A stretch of 64,000 bases of DNA, taken from positions 920,543-984,542 of the forward strand of contig NZ_FNJC01000001.1 of NCBI RefSeq assembly GCF_900104305.1, read 5' to 3'. The position numbers and the translations under genes are program-made. This DNA is from Filomicrobium insigne. Its GTDB lineage: Bacteria > Pseudomonadota > Alphaproteobacteria > Rhizobiales > Hyphomicrobiaceae. Positions 31,493 to 39,211 of the stretch are shown piece by piece. The notes under the pieces were generated by a model, which searched no databases, had not been told where the DNA came from, and worked only from the letters and a program-made list of their open reading frames with translations. The first letter of the stretch is position 1, and every line of letters begins with the position of its first letter.

Positions 31493-31719
31493 TTTTTAAA
31501 CTTTCGTTGGGTCGCAAACCGTTAACCCGCTCTCGCGGTTGGCTTGTATTTCGATATCGTTTCATCTCATTCCAAGACATAGTTCAACTTTGGATGGCTT
31601 AAAGTCCTAGCTAACCTCGTTTCCAATCAAGGTCTTGGCCGCGAACACAGACCGAAGCGACCATTGTGAAGTACCAACATGACAGGCGAACGTCGGATTA
31701 CAGAAGTGGTAAACTTAAG

Positions 31720-32646
31720 ATGACAGGAAAAAAGATCGTCGCGCGAGCCAAGACTGGAAAAGATGAAATGAATAAACCGGCGGTGGCGATCGATATCGAA
31801 CAACCCAACCTTCCGGACGGCTTTAACGAGATCGCACTCAAGTCCGGCGGATATCCTTACGACACGCCGCTTAAACGCAAAGTCTACGACGCTGAACTCG
31901 ACGCGTTGCATTATGAGTTGGTCAAACTGCAAACGCACGTCCGAAAAACAGGGATGCGGCTCGTCATTGTCTTCGAAGGGCGTGACACAGCGGGCAAGGG
32001 CGGCTGCATTCGGCGATTTACGCGGCACCTCAATCCTCGGCACGCCCGGGTCGTCGCTTTGTCAAAACCGAATGAGACAGAACGTGGTCAATGGTATTTT
32101 CAGCGCTACGCCAAACACATGCCAACGCGTGGCGACATCGTACTGTTCGACCGCTCCTGGTACAATCGCGCCGGCGTTGAGCGCGTCATGGGGTTTTGCA
32201 CAGAAGACGAACTCGCCGATTTCTTACGGGAAGCTCCGCAGTTCGAAGGCATGCTCGTGCGCGACGGTATATGTCTTCACAAGATTTTTTTAACGATCGG
32301 GCGGGAAATGCAGCTGAAGCGTTTCCATGAACGGCGGCATAATCCGCTCAAACAATGGAAGTTGAGCGATATGGACAAGGCCGCGGTCAATCTCTGGGAC
32401 GAATATACAGAAGCGAAAGACGAGATGTTTCGCTTTACCCATATCAACATGGCACCATGGACCGTTGTCCGATCCAACGATCAGCGCCGCGCGCGGCTAG
32501 AGGTAATCCGCTATATCCTCTCGCGGCATGACTACGAGGATAAGGACGCCAAGGCGATCGGGACCGTTGATCCGCTCATCGTGGGAAGCGACACCAGCTT
32601 CCTGCATGGCAGCTCAAAAGATGCGCTGAAAACGAAAACTACCTGA
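31720..32646 (+). CDS. ppk2: Polyphosphate kinase 2
   Basis: 308 residues from ATG at 31720; ATG at 31768 has a better GGAAAAG ribosome site, and a GTG at 31666 is also open. Seen: PPK2 core with Walker [12 protein letters not shown] (about residues 85-95), the lid segment with paired Arg, Walker B-type [19 protein letters not shown], and [17 protein letters not shown]. Known: PPK2 moves phosphate between polyphosphate and nucleoside di- or monophosphates. Its position back-to-back with phoR ties polyphosphate metabolism to the phosphate regulon; two CTGTCAT-type half-sites lie in the gap. Its end overlaps the convergent gene by 8 nt. Confidence 0.93.
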
Positions 32647-33502
32647 TGCAGAAAACGGGACAGCGCAGGACGGACGTGAGCGATCTGCAATCTTCGTAAG
32701 GCAGGACCGACCCGCCGTGCTTCGCGATGAGGAAACTCGCGGACATGGCACCTACGCGTCCCGCGATGGAAGAAGCCGGAGCGCTCGTCGTATCATTCAA
32801 CATAATGCTGCAGCGTTTATTGTCGGCAACCAGCAACCGCGCCTGGGCCTCTAGCCAATGAAGCTCATCGTCTCCAGCGGTGGTCAGCAGGAGCTTGATC
32901 TCAGCCCCCGTGATAGCCGCGAGGCGTTCGGCCGTCCGCAGCATTGTAGACATCCGGTCTTCGTCTTCGACGGTGACAACGATGGGGCCCTTTGAAAGGC
33001 GCGCTCTGCGGGGCACGGTCACAACGCCCGTCGCATCCTGGACGGCGTCGAGGATGCGACCGATCTTTTCGCTGCCAGAGCCATCCATAGGTTCCGACAG
33101 AACAACCACATTCCACGGACCTAAGACGGCACAACAGCGAACGAGTGCTGCAATGTCGTCATCGCGTACTGTCTGAACCCGCGCCTCAACGCCCGCAACA
33201 GTCGCTGCCTTGGTTATGTGGCGGCGCTCTGCCTCGTAGAGAGCGCGATGTTGACGCTGCAGATCGCCAGCATCCAGCCCATGGACAGCCCCATCGGCCA
33301 GGGCAATCTCATGCGCGAATGTGTGACCGGCGAGCGCTAAAATCTGCCGGTTTTCGACGAGCAAGCCTTCAAGTTCGGAGCGGTAAGCCTTGGCGATGTG
33401 TAAGGCTACCTTAAGGGCGGCATCGTTTGCCGCCGGGCTGTAGCCACAGTGAAGGACGACGCGACCTCGCGCTTCCCCCGCCTCGGCGACGTGCACGATC
33501 AT
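32639..33502 (-). CDS. Tandem UspA-like protein, partner of the Lon-like gene
   Basis: 287 residues. Seen: two alpha/beta halves. The first begins [23 protein letters not shown], the second begins [24 protein letters not shown] and ends LRCPVFCIR, which resembles the last strand of universal stress proteins. The glycine-rich ATP loop of UspA (G-x2-G-x9-G-S/T) is not apparent, so nucleotide binding is doubtful. Start and stop overlap the upstream Lon-like gene by 4 nt (ATGA), so the two are co-translated. Function unknown; I infer a partner or adaptor of the Lon-like protein. The family assignment is by pattern only. Confidence 0.7.
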
Positions 33503-35976
33503 GGCCGGGGCTCCGTCTCAACCGGCGGTACGGCAAATTGTGATTTAGTGCGTTGATTGAGCTGCTGAAGCTGATCGTCGATGTGCCGGTAGGCGTCCCC
33601 CTCAGCGAACCCACCGTCGGTTTCGCGATATCCTGCCGAAAGTCCCGTTATGGTTGCAACGCATTCAGTGACGGTCGCAGCAGGCCAAACAGCAAACGTA
33701 CCGGCTTCGACAGCATCGACGATGTCCTTACGCAACATCAGGCCGGAGAGATTGGCTTTAGGGATCACCACACCCGCATCACTGTTGAAACCGGCTGCGC
33801 GGCAGACGTCAAAGAACTCCTCGATTGCGGTGCTCACGTCGCCCGTCGGTCGGACGTGTCCAGATGGGTCGAAGGTTCCAGCTATGGCTATCGACGACGA
33901 CAGGGTCCATTCGCCAATTGCCGCGAGAACGGCAACCAATTCCGCACAACTCTCTTCCTCGCAGCTGGCACTCTCACCATCAATGAGAGCGGAAAGCGCG
34001 ATGCGATGCCGGTGGCCGAACTCGGACGCCAGGTATGCGATCACTTTGCCAGCCTCGCGCGTGCCCGATACACCGGTGAGGACTTTGACGTCGAGCGTGT
34101 CTGCTCGTGCGAAAGCGGGAAGGACCCGGGCTGAAACGCGCTGGAGCCGCGGCCCCGCGCCATCGGACTTAAGCCCCACGACGCTTCCAATGGCTGCTGG
34201 CTCAGGAAATGAGGCTGTCTTCCTCGCGCTCCCGCTGGAGGAGCCCTGAGCCGCACGGGCCTCAACAATATCGTCACGACTGATAAGCTTGCGTGACGCG
34301 GCCGCTCTTCGCGCGTTCGCGTGGTGTAGAATGCTGGCGAAATCGCGCACGCACAACGACAATAGACCCGCATCGCGCGCGTTGCGCGAGGACAACTCAA
34401 TCAATTCCGCGACTGCGCCGGGTTCCAGTGGTTCAACGGCCTCGCGTCCAATCAGCCCGGCTATCGTGCGGGCCATTGCACGCTCCGTTTCGGGGGTCCG
34501 CTCGACAACGTCCGCGAACGCCACGCGCACGTTGAATAGCTCCGCAAAGCGCGGATCGACGGACAGGATCTGTGCGAGATGCTCGGCATCGCTCAGCAGC
34601 ACAACTTTGACGTCGAGCGGGATCGCGGGCGCTAATGTTGAGGAAGAGGAGCCATCGCCCGCCAGAGCCGAACAAACCGCCCCTGCCTGTAACGCGGCCA
34701 ACAGCCCCGGCCAGGCTTGGCCTGATGCCGTCAAGGCGCGCGCGTCGAGCAACAGAAACCCGCCGTTCGCATAGTGCAACGCACCGGGTACGAGGCGCAT
34801 ATGCGGGGCTAAAGTCCCGCTCGCTATTTCGCTGCCAAACAAGCTCGTGGCGTTCGGCGCCGGCTCCTGGACTACGGGCGCGGCATTCGCGTCAGACGCC
34901 CAACTTACGAAAACATTTACGCGGTAGCGGTCGAAGCGGGCTTCATCGATTGAGTTCGACAGATCCGCGTCGAGAATATCCGTGAGATCGATCGTCGGCA
35001 AAAAGTGGTTCGCATTGGCGACGACATCCGCTTCGACTCCAGAAAAAAACTCCAAAACCTCCGGATGCTCAGCAAATAGCTCACGCGGTTCGGAAAGCGC
35101 AGCCCGAACAATACTGGCTATCACCTCCCGATTGAGCTTCGTCAAACGCGCGCGGCGTTGACGATCTATTTGCGGTGCTTTTTCCAGAAGCTCTGCGAGG
35201 TCCGCTTCGAGCGCCGTGATGTGGGCGCGCACATCCGCCTGCATCGTCGGTGGCATATTGGAGAAGGTTTCCTGCAGCACCACACTGCCATCATGCGCCG
35301 GGGCGACGGCGTAACCCATGGGCGTGCGCAAAAGAGCGATGCTGTGTGAGTCGGCGGTTCGTGCCAGGGCTTCAAGACCTGCCTGGTGTCTCGCCTGAAA
35401 TTCTGCATCGATGGCACGCCAGCGGGCCTGATAGCTGTCGCCACGCAATGCTGAAAGAATGGCGCTGCCCATTTCGCTCATGGCGTCATTTACTGAGGTT
35501 GCGAGCACGGAGCCAAGGCCAGCAGGCAATTGCAGTGCTGTTGGCGCCTGCCCGTCAGCGAAATTCGCAACATAGACCCAATCAGACGGCGGCGGGCGCT
35601 TGGCAGCTATGGTTTGAATCTGGGCCCGGATTGCGGCAACGTCCGCAAGGCTCTCGGCGCCGGTGACAACAATATTGTGGCCTCGCGTTTTGATGCTGGC
35701 CCCGATGGCGATAGCCTGAAGTGCCTGGTCCTGCCCCAGCAGCCCCACTGGGGGTTCCAACTCAGATGTTGTCTTGAAACCTAACGTTTGCGGATTGGTC
35801 GTTCGGCGCAGATCCGCTGCTGACGCGGTGGCGGGCCGGATCGCGGGTAAGCGGTGGACGGACGCGATTTGTGAACGTTGCTCAGATCTTTCCTGCGGGG
35901 CGGGGGGGGGCGCCGGCGGCGGTGTCGCGGCCTCTACGACCTTAAGCTTGTCTTTTCTCTCGCGTTTAAAGAACAT
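33499..35976 (-). CDS. Lon-like protein (LonH/YcbZ class) with degenerate ATPase and protease sites
   Basis: 825 residues. Seen: Pro-rich N-terminus (residues 15-30, encoded through a run of nine C), then VGLLGQDQALQAIAIGASIKTRGHNIVV, which matches the start of the LonB/LonH ATPase, but the P-loop position reads GAESLADVAA (from residue 106), with no GK[ST]. The middle has the family phrase LHYANGGFLLLDA. The C-terminal protease domain has DGESAS (Ser669 at the nucleophile position) followed by a 5-residue acidic insert, and the segment that should hold the catalytic Lys (GGLNEK in E. coli LonH) reads TGDVSTA, with Ala717 there. Inference: an inactive scaffold or pseudoprotease. First gene of a two-gene operon. 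Confidence 0.82.
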   Translation of the reverse strand: MFFKRERKDKLKVVEAATPPPAPPPAPQERSEQRSQIASVHRLPAIRPATASAADLRRTTNPQTLGFKTTSELEPPVGLLGQDQALQAIAIGASIKTRGHNIVVTGAESLADVAAIRAQIQTIAAKRPPPSDWVYVANFADGQAPTALQLPAGLGSVLATSVNDAMSEMGSAILSALRGDSYQARWRAIDAEFQARHQAGLEALARTADSHSIALLRTPMGYAVAPAHDGSVVLQETFSNMPPTMQADVRAHITALEADLAELLEKAPQIDRQRRARLTKLNREVIASIVRAALSEPRELFAEHPEVLEFFSGVEADVVANANHFLPTIDLTDILDADLSNSIDEARFDRYRVNVFVSWASDANAAPVVQEPAPNATSLFGSEIASGTLAPHMRLVPGALHYANGGFLLLDARALTASGQAWPGLLAALQAGAVCSALAGDGSSSSTLAPAIPLDVKVVLLSDAEHLAQILSVDPRFAELFNVRVAFADVVERTPETERAMARTIAGLIGREAVEPLEPGAVAELIELSSRNARDAGLLSLCVRDFASILHHANARRAAASRKLISRDDIVEARAAQGSSSGSARKTASFPEPAAIGSVVGLKSDGAGPRLQRVSARVLPAFARADTLDVKVLTGVSGTREAGKVIAYLASEFGHRHRIALSALIDGESASCEEESCAELVAVLAAIGEWTLSSSIAIAGTFDPSGHVRPTGDVSTAIEEFFDVCRAAGFNSDAGVVIPKANLSGLMLRKDIVDAVEAGTFAVWPAATVTECVATITGLSAGYRETDGGFAEGDAYRHIDDQLQQLNQRTKSQFAVPPVETEPRP

Positions 35977-36147
35977 GCGTTTTGTTCCAGCCCTCGTACG
36001 TCCCGCAGCTTTCGTCCTAGCGGCAGCGTGTTCCCGTGGTCTTCTGGGACACGACGCAGCCGCGCCTCACGCGTTTTGAATAGGCGCAGCCCAAAGCGGA
36101 GCTGCGCAAATTGATGAAGTCCGTTTGCACTTGGGGATGGCGTCTAA

Positions 36148-36667: not shown

Positions 36668-37237
36668 TTACTTGGGCGCGCGTTTCGCGAGAATACGCTG
36701 GAGCGTACGGCGGTGCATGTTCAGTCGGCGTGCCGTTTCCGAGACATTGCGATTGCAAAGCTCATAAACCCGCTGGATATGCTCCCAGCGCACGCGGTCT
36801 GCTGACATTGGATTTTCTGGTGGCGGCGCCTGGGTGTTGGCGGGGGCGAGCAACGCGTCTGTTACTTCATCAGCATCAGCGGGCTTCGCCAGATAATCTA
36901 CAGCACCAAGCTTCACGGCCGTAACGGCCGTCGCGATGTTTCCATAACCGGTCAACACGATGGCGCGTGCATCAGGGCGTAGACGCGCTAACTCAGCAAT
37001 GACATCAAGCCCGTTACCGTCATCGAGCCGCATATCAACGACAGCGAACGCTGGGCTCGATTGGCGGATCAGATCGATACCTTCCGAAACGGAATGCCCC
37101 GTCCGGACATTGAAACCGCGGCCTTCCATGGCGCGGGCCAGACGCTGTAAGAACGCCTTGTCATCATCAACGATGACCAACGACACGTCCTCCGGCAGTT
37201 CGTCCTGGCGAAACGACAGATCCTCGTTCACGGTCAC
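36668..37237 (-). CDS. actR: Redox response regulator ActR/RegA
   Basis: 189 residues. Seen: receiver domain with VIVDDDKAFL, phospho-acceptor Asp68 (VVDMRLDDGNG), Thr (LTGYG) and Lys (AKPAD); a Pro-rich hinge; and a Fis-type helix-turn-helix at the end (NVSETARRLNMHRRTLQRIL). Known: RegA/ActR/PrrA controls respiration, nitrogen and carbon-fixation genes in answer to redox state, paired with RegB/ActS. The partner kinase is the next gene upstream (about 130 bp). The DNA-binding helix is the near-invariant one of this family. Confidence 0.94.
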   Translation of the reverse strand: MTVNEDLSFRQDELPEDVSLVIVDDDKAFLQRLARAMEGRGFNVRTGHSVSEGIDLIRQSSPAFAVVDMRLDDGNGLDVIAELARLRPDARAIVLTGYGNIATAVTAVKLGAVDYLAKPADADEVTDALLAPANTQAPPPENPMSADRVRWEHIQRVYELCNRNVSETARRLNMHRRTLQRILAKRAPK

Positions 37238-37369
37238 TGGCTTTCAGTCCTTCTCATCAGCGGTACTATAACGCAGTTTCGTGCGCGACCAAATCCCGGC
37301 CTACAAATATGGTGTCCGCCATTCTTGTTCATGGTTTCAATGCAGATAAACAGCTATCGTCACGTAATT

Positions 37370-38740
37370 TCAAGAGCTTGATTGCGCCCAAGTTGCTGGG
37401 GCTACAAAAAACGACCTCGGCCATGTTATCCTAACAATAGCTCCAGTTCCCTTGTCAGCCGTGCGATTTCCGCACTCCACAGTCGCACCAGAGCGTTCGA
37501 GCAGCGTTTTGGCAATGAAAAAGCCCAATCCCAATCCATAGGTTTTGCTACTCCGGCGGGCGGCGTTTTGGCTCTTTGTCGTGAGATAGGGGTCGCCCAG
37601 CGCGTTCAAGAGTTCGGGCGGGAAGCCGGGTCCGTCGTCAGAAATTTCAAGGACGACGTGGTCGGCATCCCAACTGGCCGTGACATCAACCCGCGAAGCA
37701 GCAAAATCGACAGCATTTTCAATAATATTGCGTACACCATAAAGAACGCCGGGTTGTCGTGCCCCAACGGGCTGTTTGGCAACGGCGTCGTCTTCAACTG
37801 CCTCCATCGGGCTCGCAATAATACGTAGCTGCTTGCCGAATTCGAGATAGGGCGAGGCCGCCTCGTCGACCAATTCGCGGACCGACTGGGTTTCGTGCAT
37901 GGGGTCGGAGGCGCTGGGTTTACGCGTCAATGTCTGCAGAATCTCACGGCAACGCGCCGCCTGCGAGCGCAGCAGTGCAATGTCCTCAGCGTGAGGGTGA
38001 TCAGGCCCGAACTCGCGTTCGAGTTCCTTCGTCACAAGCACGATCGTGGATAGAGGTGTTCCCAACTCATGGGCCGCGGCAGCCGCAAGCCCATCGAGGG
38101 CATGCAGTTTTTGCTCACTCGCGAGCACCAATTCGGTCGCGGCAAGAGCTGCCGACATCTCACGCCCTTCCTTCGCCAGGCGGCGCACATAGAGCGCGAT
38201 GAACGTCATCCCGGCCCCCATGGCAGTGAAGATGCCAAACTTGTAGAGCACCGGAAGTTCGAACTTGAGGTTTTGATACCAGGGCAGCGGCCAGTAATCG
38301 TAGGTCAGCCAATAGGTTGCGAGCAGCGCAATCAGCCCCAGAAAAATCGTGAAGCGAGTCGGTAGCGTGGCCGCCGAAACGGTTACAGGGGCCACGATCA
38401 AGACCACGAAAGGATTGCCAATTCCACCTGTGAAATACAGGAGAGCGCTGAGCTGCAGGATGTCATAGGTCAGCAGCGCCGCAGCGACCGGAGGGGAAAG
38501 TCGATGGCTGCCGGGAAGCCGGATAGACAAGAAAACATTGAGCCATGCCGACAGAGCGATCAATGTCAGACAATGCGCGAGCGGCACCGGAAACTTCAGC
38601 CCGAAAGCAACGACCAGGATCGCTAAGAGCTGGCCGACGACCGCAATCCAACGCAGCCGAACGATCGTGGCCAAACGGACCTGACCATCGGAAATTTGTG
38701 CGAGTTTAAAGAGTTCACGCGGCTGGGCTTCTCTCAGCAC
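37370..38740 (-). CDS. actS: Redox sensor kinase ActS/RegB
   Basis: 456 residues from GTG at 38740, which has GGAG 8 nt upstream; a TTG start 11 codons earlier (38773) is possible. Seen: six predicted membrane helices in the first ~190 residues, the quinone-site heptapeptide GGIGNPF (residues 105-111), H box AAAHELGTPLST with His224, the redox cysteine in ARCREIL (Cys264, matching Rhodobacter RegB Cys265), and ATPase boxes (NIIENAVDFA, ISDDGPGFP, GLGLGFFIAK). Known: global redox kinase that phosphorylates ActR. It is encoded beside actR on the same strand. Confidence 0.94.
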   Translation of the reverse strand: MLREAQPRELFKLAQISDGQVRLATIVRLRWIAVVGQLLAILVVAFGLKFPVPLAHCLTLIALSAWLNVFLSIRLPGSHRLSPPVAAALLTYDILQLSALLYFTGGIGNPFVVLIVAPVTVSAATLPTRFTIFLGLIALLATYWLTYDYWPLPWYQNLKFELPVLYKFGIFTAMGAGMTFIALYVRRLAKEGREMSAALAATELVLASEQKLHALDGLAAAAAHELGTPLSTIVLVTKELEREFGPDHPHAEDIALLRSQAARCREILQTLTRKPSASDPMHETQSVRELVDEAASPYLEFGKQLRIIASPMEAVEDDAVAKQPVGARQPGVLYGVRNIIENAVDFAASRVDVTASWDADHVVLEISDDGPGFPPELLNALGDPYLTTKSQNAARRSSKTYGLGLGFFIAKTLLERSGATVECGNRTADKGTGAIVRITWPRSFFVAPATWAQSSS

Positions 38741-39211
38741 CCGAGCTACTCCTAGCTTTTCCTTGCTGACCAAATTGGGAATCGGGGGAGCGGTTGCGCG
38801 GCAAGCCCTCGCTCATCCTAATTTGGCTATACCGCGTCGCCGCATCTCACGCCAGCAACCTAGAAGAAATGGGCTCAACGGCGAACCTTCTTTCAAATAT
38901 CAAAGTGTCTCTCGGGAGACAGACAGCAGCCAAGGTTGCCACCAAACTGGATCCTAGCCAGATTGCATTCGCGCTTTATTGCGGATGGGACGTTCGGCTT
39001 TCGGCAAACATGCCGTCGACTATCTCACGACCGAGAGCTTTGCTGACATCGCGATAACGCTTCCGGAGAGAAGCGAATCACTTCACGCTGCAAGATGGGA
39101 ACGTGGCGTCAAAACGACAGGATGACGCACAGTCCACTGACCAAATCATTTTTGTCCACCGTATGAACTGTTGCGTCGCGTCAATGAACGCATGCAAGGG
39201 AGAAACAGCAC
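38741..39211. other. 471-bp divergent intergenic region, actS/PHA depolymerase
   Basis: No supportable gene; frames here are short and have no ribosome site. A small hairpin (GCTTC/GAAGC, about 39060-39075) without a T tract is present. I saw no FNR-type TTGAT-N4-ATCAA palindrome. Promoters for actS and the depolymerase gene must lie here. The AAGGGAG at about 39196 is the ribosome site of the next gene. Confidence 0.5.

Follow-up and report, generated by a model that had tools for sequence, protein, structure and literature searches.

What becomes of a chambered protease that no longer cuts, and why is its gene kept? This question is raised by a locus within the 64,000-nucleotide stretch of Filomicrobium insigne analyzed here (the window; contig NZ_FNJC01000001.1, positions 920,543 to 984,542). 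An earlier note, made from the letters alone, had placed there an intact 825-residue frame (33499-35976) encoding a Lon-like protein without P-loop and catalytic lysine, and had read it as a pseudoprotease retained in some other role. Coordinates and frame were confirmed (825 aa, without internal stops), the gene being on the minus strand, a point on which the note was silent. The RGHNIVV phrase is present in its translation. Our analysis leads us to regard the protein as very probably catalytically dead and selectively kept.

The Lon-like gene belongs to the LonC subfamily

The protein matched the Pfam families AAA_32 (PF13654), LonC_helical (PF20437), and LonB_AAA-LID (PF20436), all above cut-off, and a Pfam search of the whole chain gave no match to Lon_C, a family matched by two intact Filomicrobium relatives (E 3e-9 and 2e-9). 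LonC of Meiothermus taiwanensis (MtaLonC; PDB match with E 3e-39) is the nearest relative of solved structure in both sequence and fold, and it replaces E. coli LonH as the reference used in the earlier note. The predicted model (mean pLDDT 83.6) aligns with LonC along the whole chain (8k8v_A, Z 32.0, rmsd 3.9, 680 residues aligned), and its residues 587-801 match the proteolytic domain of A. fulgidus Lon (Z 16.6). Because of these two matches, the fold of the protease domain seems to be kept, the active site not. PMC3391209 describes a further LonC-specific trait, an inserted CX3GLX(G/E) motif that follows the helix of the catalytic Lys; the corresponding site reads CRAAGFNS here, with C and G kept, L replaced by F, and S at the last position. 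We assign the gene as an orthologue of LonC, the ATP-independent Lon subfamily. The features discussed in the following are compiled in Table 1.

Table 1 Features of the Lon-like gene and its partner (positions in the window)
Feature	Position	Strand	Remarks and basis
Lon-like (LonC-derived) pseudoprotease gene	33499..35976	-	825 codons + stop; Pfam, PDB, fold matches
P-loop position GAESLADVAA, residues 106-115	35632..35661	-	residue 112 (Asp) in the Walker-A Lys column; alignments
Helical / coiled insert region, residues 126-345	34942..35601	-	best preserved part
AAA_32 domain, residues 365-487	34516..34884	-	Walker-B-like GGFLLLDA, without Glu; Pfam, alignment
AAA lid, residues 516-577	34246..34431	-	Pfam
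Degenerate Lon-type protease domain, residues 586-790	33607..34221	-	modelled fold kept, no Pfam Lon_C
Rebuilt nucleophile segment, residues 665-680 (IDGESASCEEESCAEL)	33937..33984	-	alignments; low pLDDT
Ala717, catalytic-Lys column	33826..33828	-	alignments
ATGA overlap, Lon-like stop / partner start	33499..33502	-	sequence
Partner gene, tandem universal-stress-protein-like, 287 aa	32639..33502	-	profile and fold matches

P-loop and catalytic dyad

The earlier note had interpreted the missing P-loop as one half of a special double loss. We indeed found GAESLADV without GK[ST] where Filomicrobium relatives typically show GPDASGKS/T, and D-A at Walker B. A double loss as one special event is ruled out, however, since the P-loop Lys is absent beside an intact dyad in 55 of the 80 named orthologues among the matches listed. 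Walker B Asp occurs in 77 of these 80 listed orthologues and Asp-Glu in none. In PMC3391209, LonC proteins are described as generally devoid of canonical AAA+ motifs, and MtaLonC as binding nucleotide yet lacking ATPase activity. Given this lack of motifs and the 55 listed orthologues, the loss of the P-loop is, as far as sequences tell, ordinary for LonC. Unlike in this wider set, P-loop Lys and dyad do go together within Hyphomicrobiaceae, the Lys being kept in 25/26 intact and 1/31 dead forms inspected.

The catalytic-Lys column is occupied by Ala717 in every alignment (STAIEEFF vs NEKIEGFF), as the earlier note had stated, and helix 714-728 holds no other Lys. Regarding the nucleophile, the DGESAS block and its insert of about five residues were recovered, but the choice of Ser669 stands on divided alignments: three place Ser669 in the nucleophile column, one places Glu674, and a pairwise match puts Ser676 opposite Ser582 of MtaLonC, the catalytic Ser according to PDB structure titles. 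The note had also missed that about nine residues preceding DGESAS, LVFEQSYGG in relatives, are deleted. Residues 667-672 are modelled with pLDDT below 50.

A Ser usable as nucleophile may remain. With a Ser (669 or 676) and the domain fold possibly kept, the protein could in principle still be a protease whose rebuilt active site employs another residue as base. We consider this highly improbable in view of the Lys-bearing helix without any Lys, the deletion of the pre-nucleophile segment, the low-confidence model of the site and, as described below, the absence of the entire domain from many relatives. Both residues of the Ser-Lys dyad are kept in 80/80 named orthologues among the matches listed, a set drawn from the top-ranking matches to a query of 10 intact and 3 protease-less sequences, and therefore biased toward intact forms. 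Since all of these listed orthologues retain Ser and Lys, it is the broken dyad that stands out in the alignments as the unusual loss, and as more than chance.

An overlapping partner gene

Directly downstream of the Lon-like gene lies the gene of a tandem universal-stress-protein (USP)-like partner. Its profile matches the tandem USP TTHA0350 (E 2e-13), and its model (pLDDT 90.2) matches the folds of YdaA, TTHA0350, and UspE. The copy studied here has no Pfam match above cut-off, Usp included; 11 of the 43 aligned members of the partner family match the Usp Pfam, with E up to 0.1. The stop/start overlap is kept in 30/30 dead loci, namely the Filomicrobium gene, 27/27 protease-less and 2/2 other dead loci, and in 23/25 intact loci of the family whose flanks could be read. 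Among the matches listed, 79 named loci were readable, with 55 overlapping, 16 adjacent, and 8 without the partner at that place, one of the latter carrying a partner copy 350 bases on. The overlapping arrangement of LonC and USP-like protein is common in Alphaproteobacteria. In the 8 of 79 readable named loci listed that have no adjoining partner, LonC can evidently exist without it.

The partner was also sought in eight of the nine family genomes that lack the Lon-like gene (G016 omitted; assemblies 93-100% complete). In 8/8, matches to the partner were absent or weak: five genomes had none at 1e-8 and three had matches of E 7e-14 at best (7e-14 to 9e-11), compared to 4e-33 or better in a comparison set of four genomes carrying the Lon-like gene. 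The divergence of both proteins is correlated (Spearman 0.78 over 23 lineages, which are not independent). Such a correlation is not exclusive to this pair: in the same analysis of non-independent lineages, the Lon-like protein gave 0.49 with MmcB, 0.43 with RegB, and -0.70 with RegA, and the partner gave 0.52 with MmcB.

Overlapping genes, co-loss, and co-divergence fit a dedicated pair, and one way to read them is that the USP-like protein used to be a client of the protease. Loss of the dyad would then have turned its regulated degradation into stable sequestration, and the dead protein would inhibit or chaperone the partner encoded beside it. In line with this reading, preservation is best in the helical part, where contact with clients is plausible. 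However, the same data fit a partner that is a sensor or co-subunit, and we regard the client reading as unlikely.

Two further observations concern the surroundings of the partner. The last 8 bases of a PPK2 gene on the plus strand (31666-32646) overlap those of the partner gene tail to tail, and many related loci likewise have PPK2 close to the unit. In addition, Parvibaculum and some other loci carry, behind the first copy, another and weaker member of the partner family (L129-L131, L134, L135, L139, L156, L158, L165).

Repeated loss of the protease in Hyphomicrobiaceae

A family-wide search found the Lon-like gene in 70 of 79 genomes, and the presence of MmcB in the fetched flank at 51 of 56 other family loci argues for the same locus across the family. 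We inspected 57 Hyphomicrobiaceae genomes and found 26 intact forms, 3 that are full-length but dead, and 28 without the protease domain. Cutting would thus be dispensable to the unit in the last group, which lacks the whole domain. Beyond the 57, G022, G007, G011, G039, G040, G042, G047, G048, G075, and G078 read as intact, the gene is cut off or fragmented in G005, G013, and G019, and G043, G080, and G081 were left out of the reading. Counts omit L065 and L070, and some trees omit L090 and L097. L106 and L107, which are both pieces of G068, were excluded from the trees, the rates, and the count of junctions.

The full-length dead forms are the Filomicrobium protein (G000), G073, and G012. 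In G073 (L098), both dyad columns are changed and the P-loop GAGK is kept, which suggests that the dyad goes first, before the P-loop. G012 resembles the Filomicrobium protein in that dyad and P-loop are lost with the protease domain still present. The domain is missing in 8/8 of g8, in 18/18 of g11, and in G085 and G095; most of these proteins end just past the AAA lid, and three of g11 end before it.

In a tree of RegB, RegA, and MmcB, which required RegB (G095 and three g32 loci are among those absent), G000, G073, G085, and G012 lie apart, with G012 as sister of g33 (86/94). The groups g8 and g11 (85/57) may share one loss event. Based on the separate positions of dead forms in this neighbor-gene tree, and assuming that a lost site or domain is never regained, at least five independent losses of proteolysis appear to have occurred within Hyphomicrobiaceae. 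Outside the family, a search of 247 genomes with the Lon-like protein and its family as query (threshold 1e-15) revealed 24 order-mates with the gene, all of which reach the model end, one in two pieces; the two that were read, G033 and G034, have intact dyads.

Selection versus decay

We calculated dN/dS for 19 chosen pairs, one locus being part of two pairs. Ratios of 0.08-0.21 were obtained in 10 of 11 protease-less pairs and of 0.06-0.17 in the intact pairs (n = 7). The eleventh protease-less pair gave 0.455 at a dS of 0.09, and RegB is equally high there (0.524); dead G073 compared to its intact sister gave 0.405. On these rates, the protease-less forms are under purifying selection. For the Filomicrobium gene itself, no close relative with the same dead version was found.

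The very long branch of the Filomicrobium protein (2.66 vs 0.1-0.5 for its sisters) and the loss of both motifs would also be expected of a gene drifting to loss in this one species and still unbroken. Several observations speak against such relaxed decay. The 825 codons are free of stops, and 0/200 runs of a neutral simulation were still open even at 63% identity, which is lenient given a real identity of about 37%. Conservation is regional along the protein: the helical region (126-345) retains an identity to Filomicrobium of 0.83-0.86 of the normal level, and conserved columns are kept at 29/34 in the helical part compared to 13/43 in the initial portion of the protease domain. Codon-position GC is similar to that of the neighboring genes, and the related protease-less forms are under purifying selection, as stated above. 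We therefore consider decay improbable. The retention of conserved columns shared with two other dead proteins was not significant (L068, p=0.11; L098, p=0.48).

The proposal of a pseudoprotease kept for another task thus gains support from dead orthologues in several lineages of the family together with the low dN/dS ratios of the protease-less pairs. The comparison of orthologues that the earlier note had envisaged gave a mixed picture, the occurrence of dead orthologues agreeing with its reading and the frequent P-loop loss beside intact dyads disagreeing. Its suggestion of a decoy, which would poison an intact copy, is unlikely because the search of the genome yielded a single AAA_32 gene.

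Descent and genomic context

Among themselves, the other Filomicrobium copies share 64-87%, and those that could be read are intact; they share 36-38% with the Lon-like protein. A scan of named sequences with this protein alone as query found nothing. A tree containing all dead rows placed it among other dead, long-branched rows, apart from Filomicrobium, and drew a warning of long branches meeting. This tree prompted us to consider a horizontal replacement of the gene, a reading that we did not retain: in a tree deliberately made without the other dead rows the Lon-like protein joins Filomicrobium (92/94, not starred), as do the partner gene (99/93, starred) and the neighboring RegB, RegA, and MmcB (100/100). 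Because of this common grouping, vertical descent is the preferred explanation.

The Lon-like gene is the only AAA_32 gene that a search of the genome found. A second Lon gene, an 814-aa frame with a Lon_C match, is taken as LonA. The genome also encodes BrxL, the Lon-like protein of BREX phage defence (L189, G000 contig 9, 682119-685562; BrxL_ATPase, E 9e-126). Beside the unit (36668-38773) lie genes of a RegA/RegB-type (ActR/ActS) redox two-component system, which are near it in many family loci; a regulatory link to the unit is possible. No FNR/FixK box with at most two mismatches to the consensus is present in front of the Lon-like gene (35977-36147). In the whole window, 33 FNR-box-like patterns were counted with the same tolerance, compared to 19.7 expected from shuffles, and none lies before the unit. 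The excerpt of PMC4634722 on the Rhodobacter FnrL regulon names a UspA protein and PPK2 together and no Lon, and was set aside as support for the unit.

A probable non-cutting half of a two-gene unit

We propose that a LonC-type, ATP-independent Lon protease, inherited vertically, became a pseudoprotease in this Filomicrobium species. Its gene and that of the tandem USP-like protein would form a unit of two overlapping genes, the Lon-like one first, with probable translational coupling, and selection would act to keep this unit, not proteolysis. We find it rather likely that the pseudoprotease persists as one half of a LonC-USP unit, without cutting, and probably as a client-holding or scaffold ring. 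The sequence data carry orthology, Lys loss, overlap, repeated loss of the protease, purifying selection on the protease-less forms, and the lack of a strong partner match when the Lon-like gene is gone; binding of the partner we infer from gene order and co-divergence.

In mechanistic terms, the AAA-like and helical body would still form a ring, as LonC does with six or seven subunits, and could hold unfolded or specific client proteins. The USP-like partner may sense a ligand or the stress state and set capture or release. With the dyad gone, the machine would hold or sequester instead of cutting, and the other Lon of the genome could take over degradation. That such a holding or scaffold ring acts together with the partner is a tentative suggestion at this stage.

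Similarly speculative is the generalization that LonC and the tandem USP-like protein might constitute an alphaproteobacterial two-component unit with a core function other than proteolysis, with the protease dismantled stepwise and a partner-bound pseudo-AAA ring left to hold or gate clients. The steps would lead from a lost dyad with kept P-loop (G073) via loss of both with the domain present (G000, G012) to deletion of the domain (g8, g11, G085, G095). The repeated loss of the protease while the rest stayed suggests that the body and its stress-type partner do something selectable without cutting. What seem to be at least five losses of the protease, with body and partner retained, amount to a natural separation-of-function experiment, which names the partner to test. 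To our knowledge, the cellular job of LonC is unclear. The Hyphomicrobiaceae forms also show, in graded steps, how a chambered protease can lose its enzymatic nature.

Comparison with known systems

Neither the LonC-USP pair nor a pseudoprotease series within LonC was found in searches of the open-licence PMC literature. Lon-type domains that are not known to perform proteolysis occur in RadA and BrxL, which share the Lon protease-like fold (5lkq, 8emh). Their ATPase parts and their functions in DNA repair and phage defence differ, and they are not orthologues of LonC. The partner resembles TTHA0350 and UspE/YdaA in its two USP-like domains, with identities of 11-18% in the top ten fold matches.

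Across Hyphomicrobiaceae, Filomicrobium included, the intact LonC orthologues occupy the same locus with the same partner overlap, but those of Filomicrobium have an intact dyad and are 36-38% alike to the protein described here. The protease-less proteins of g8 and g11 likewise share locus and partner, have no protease site, and have lost the P-loop Lys; unlike the Filomicrobium protein, they lack the whole protease domain, and three of g11 the lid as well. With MtaLonC and Thermus TTC1975, our protein has in common the whole-chain fold and an AAA-like body without canonical ATPase motifs. MtaLonC differs in its complete dyad (Lys625 according to PMC3391209), in degrading unfolded proteins, and in its retained nucleotide binding. 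In the Filomicrobium protein, Ala stands in place of Lys, the segment around the nucleophile has been rebuilt, and no P-loop can be recognized at its usual position.
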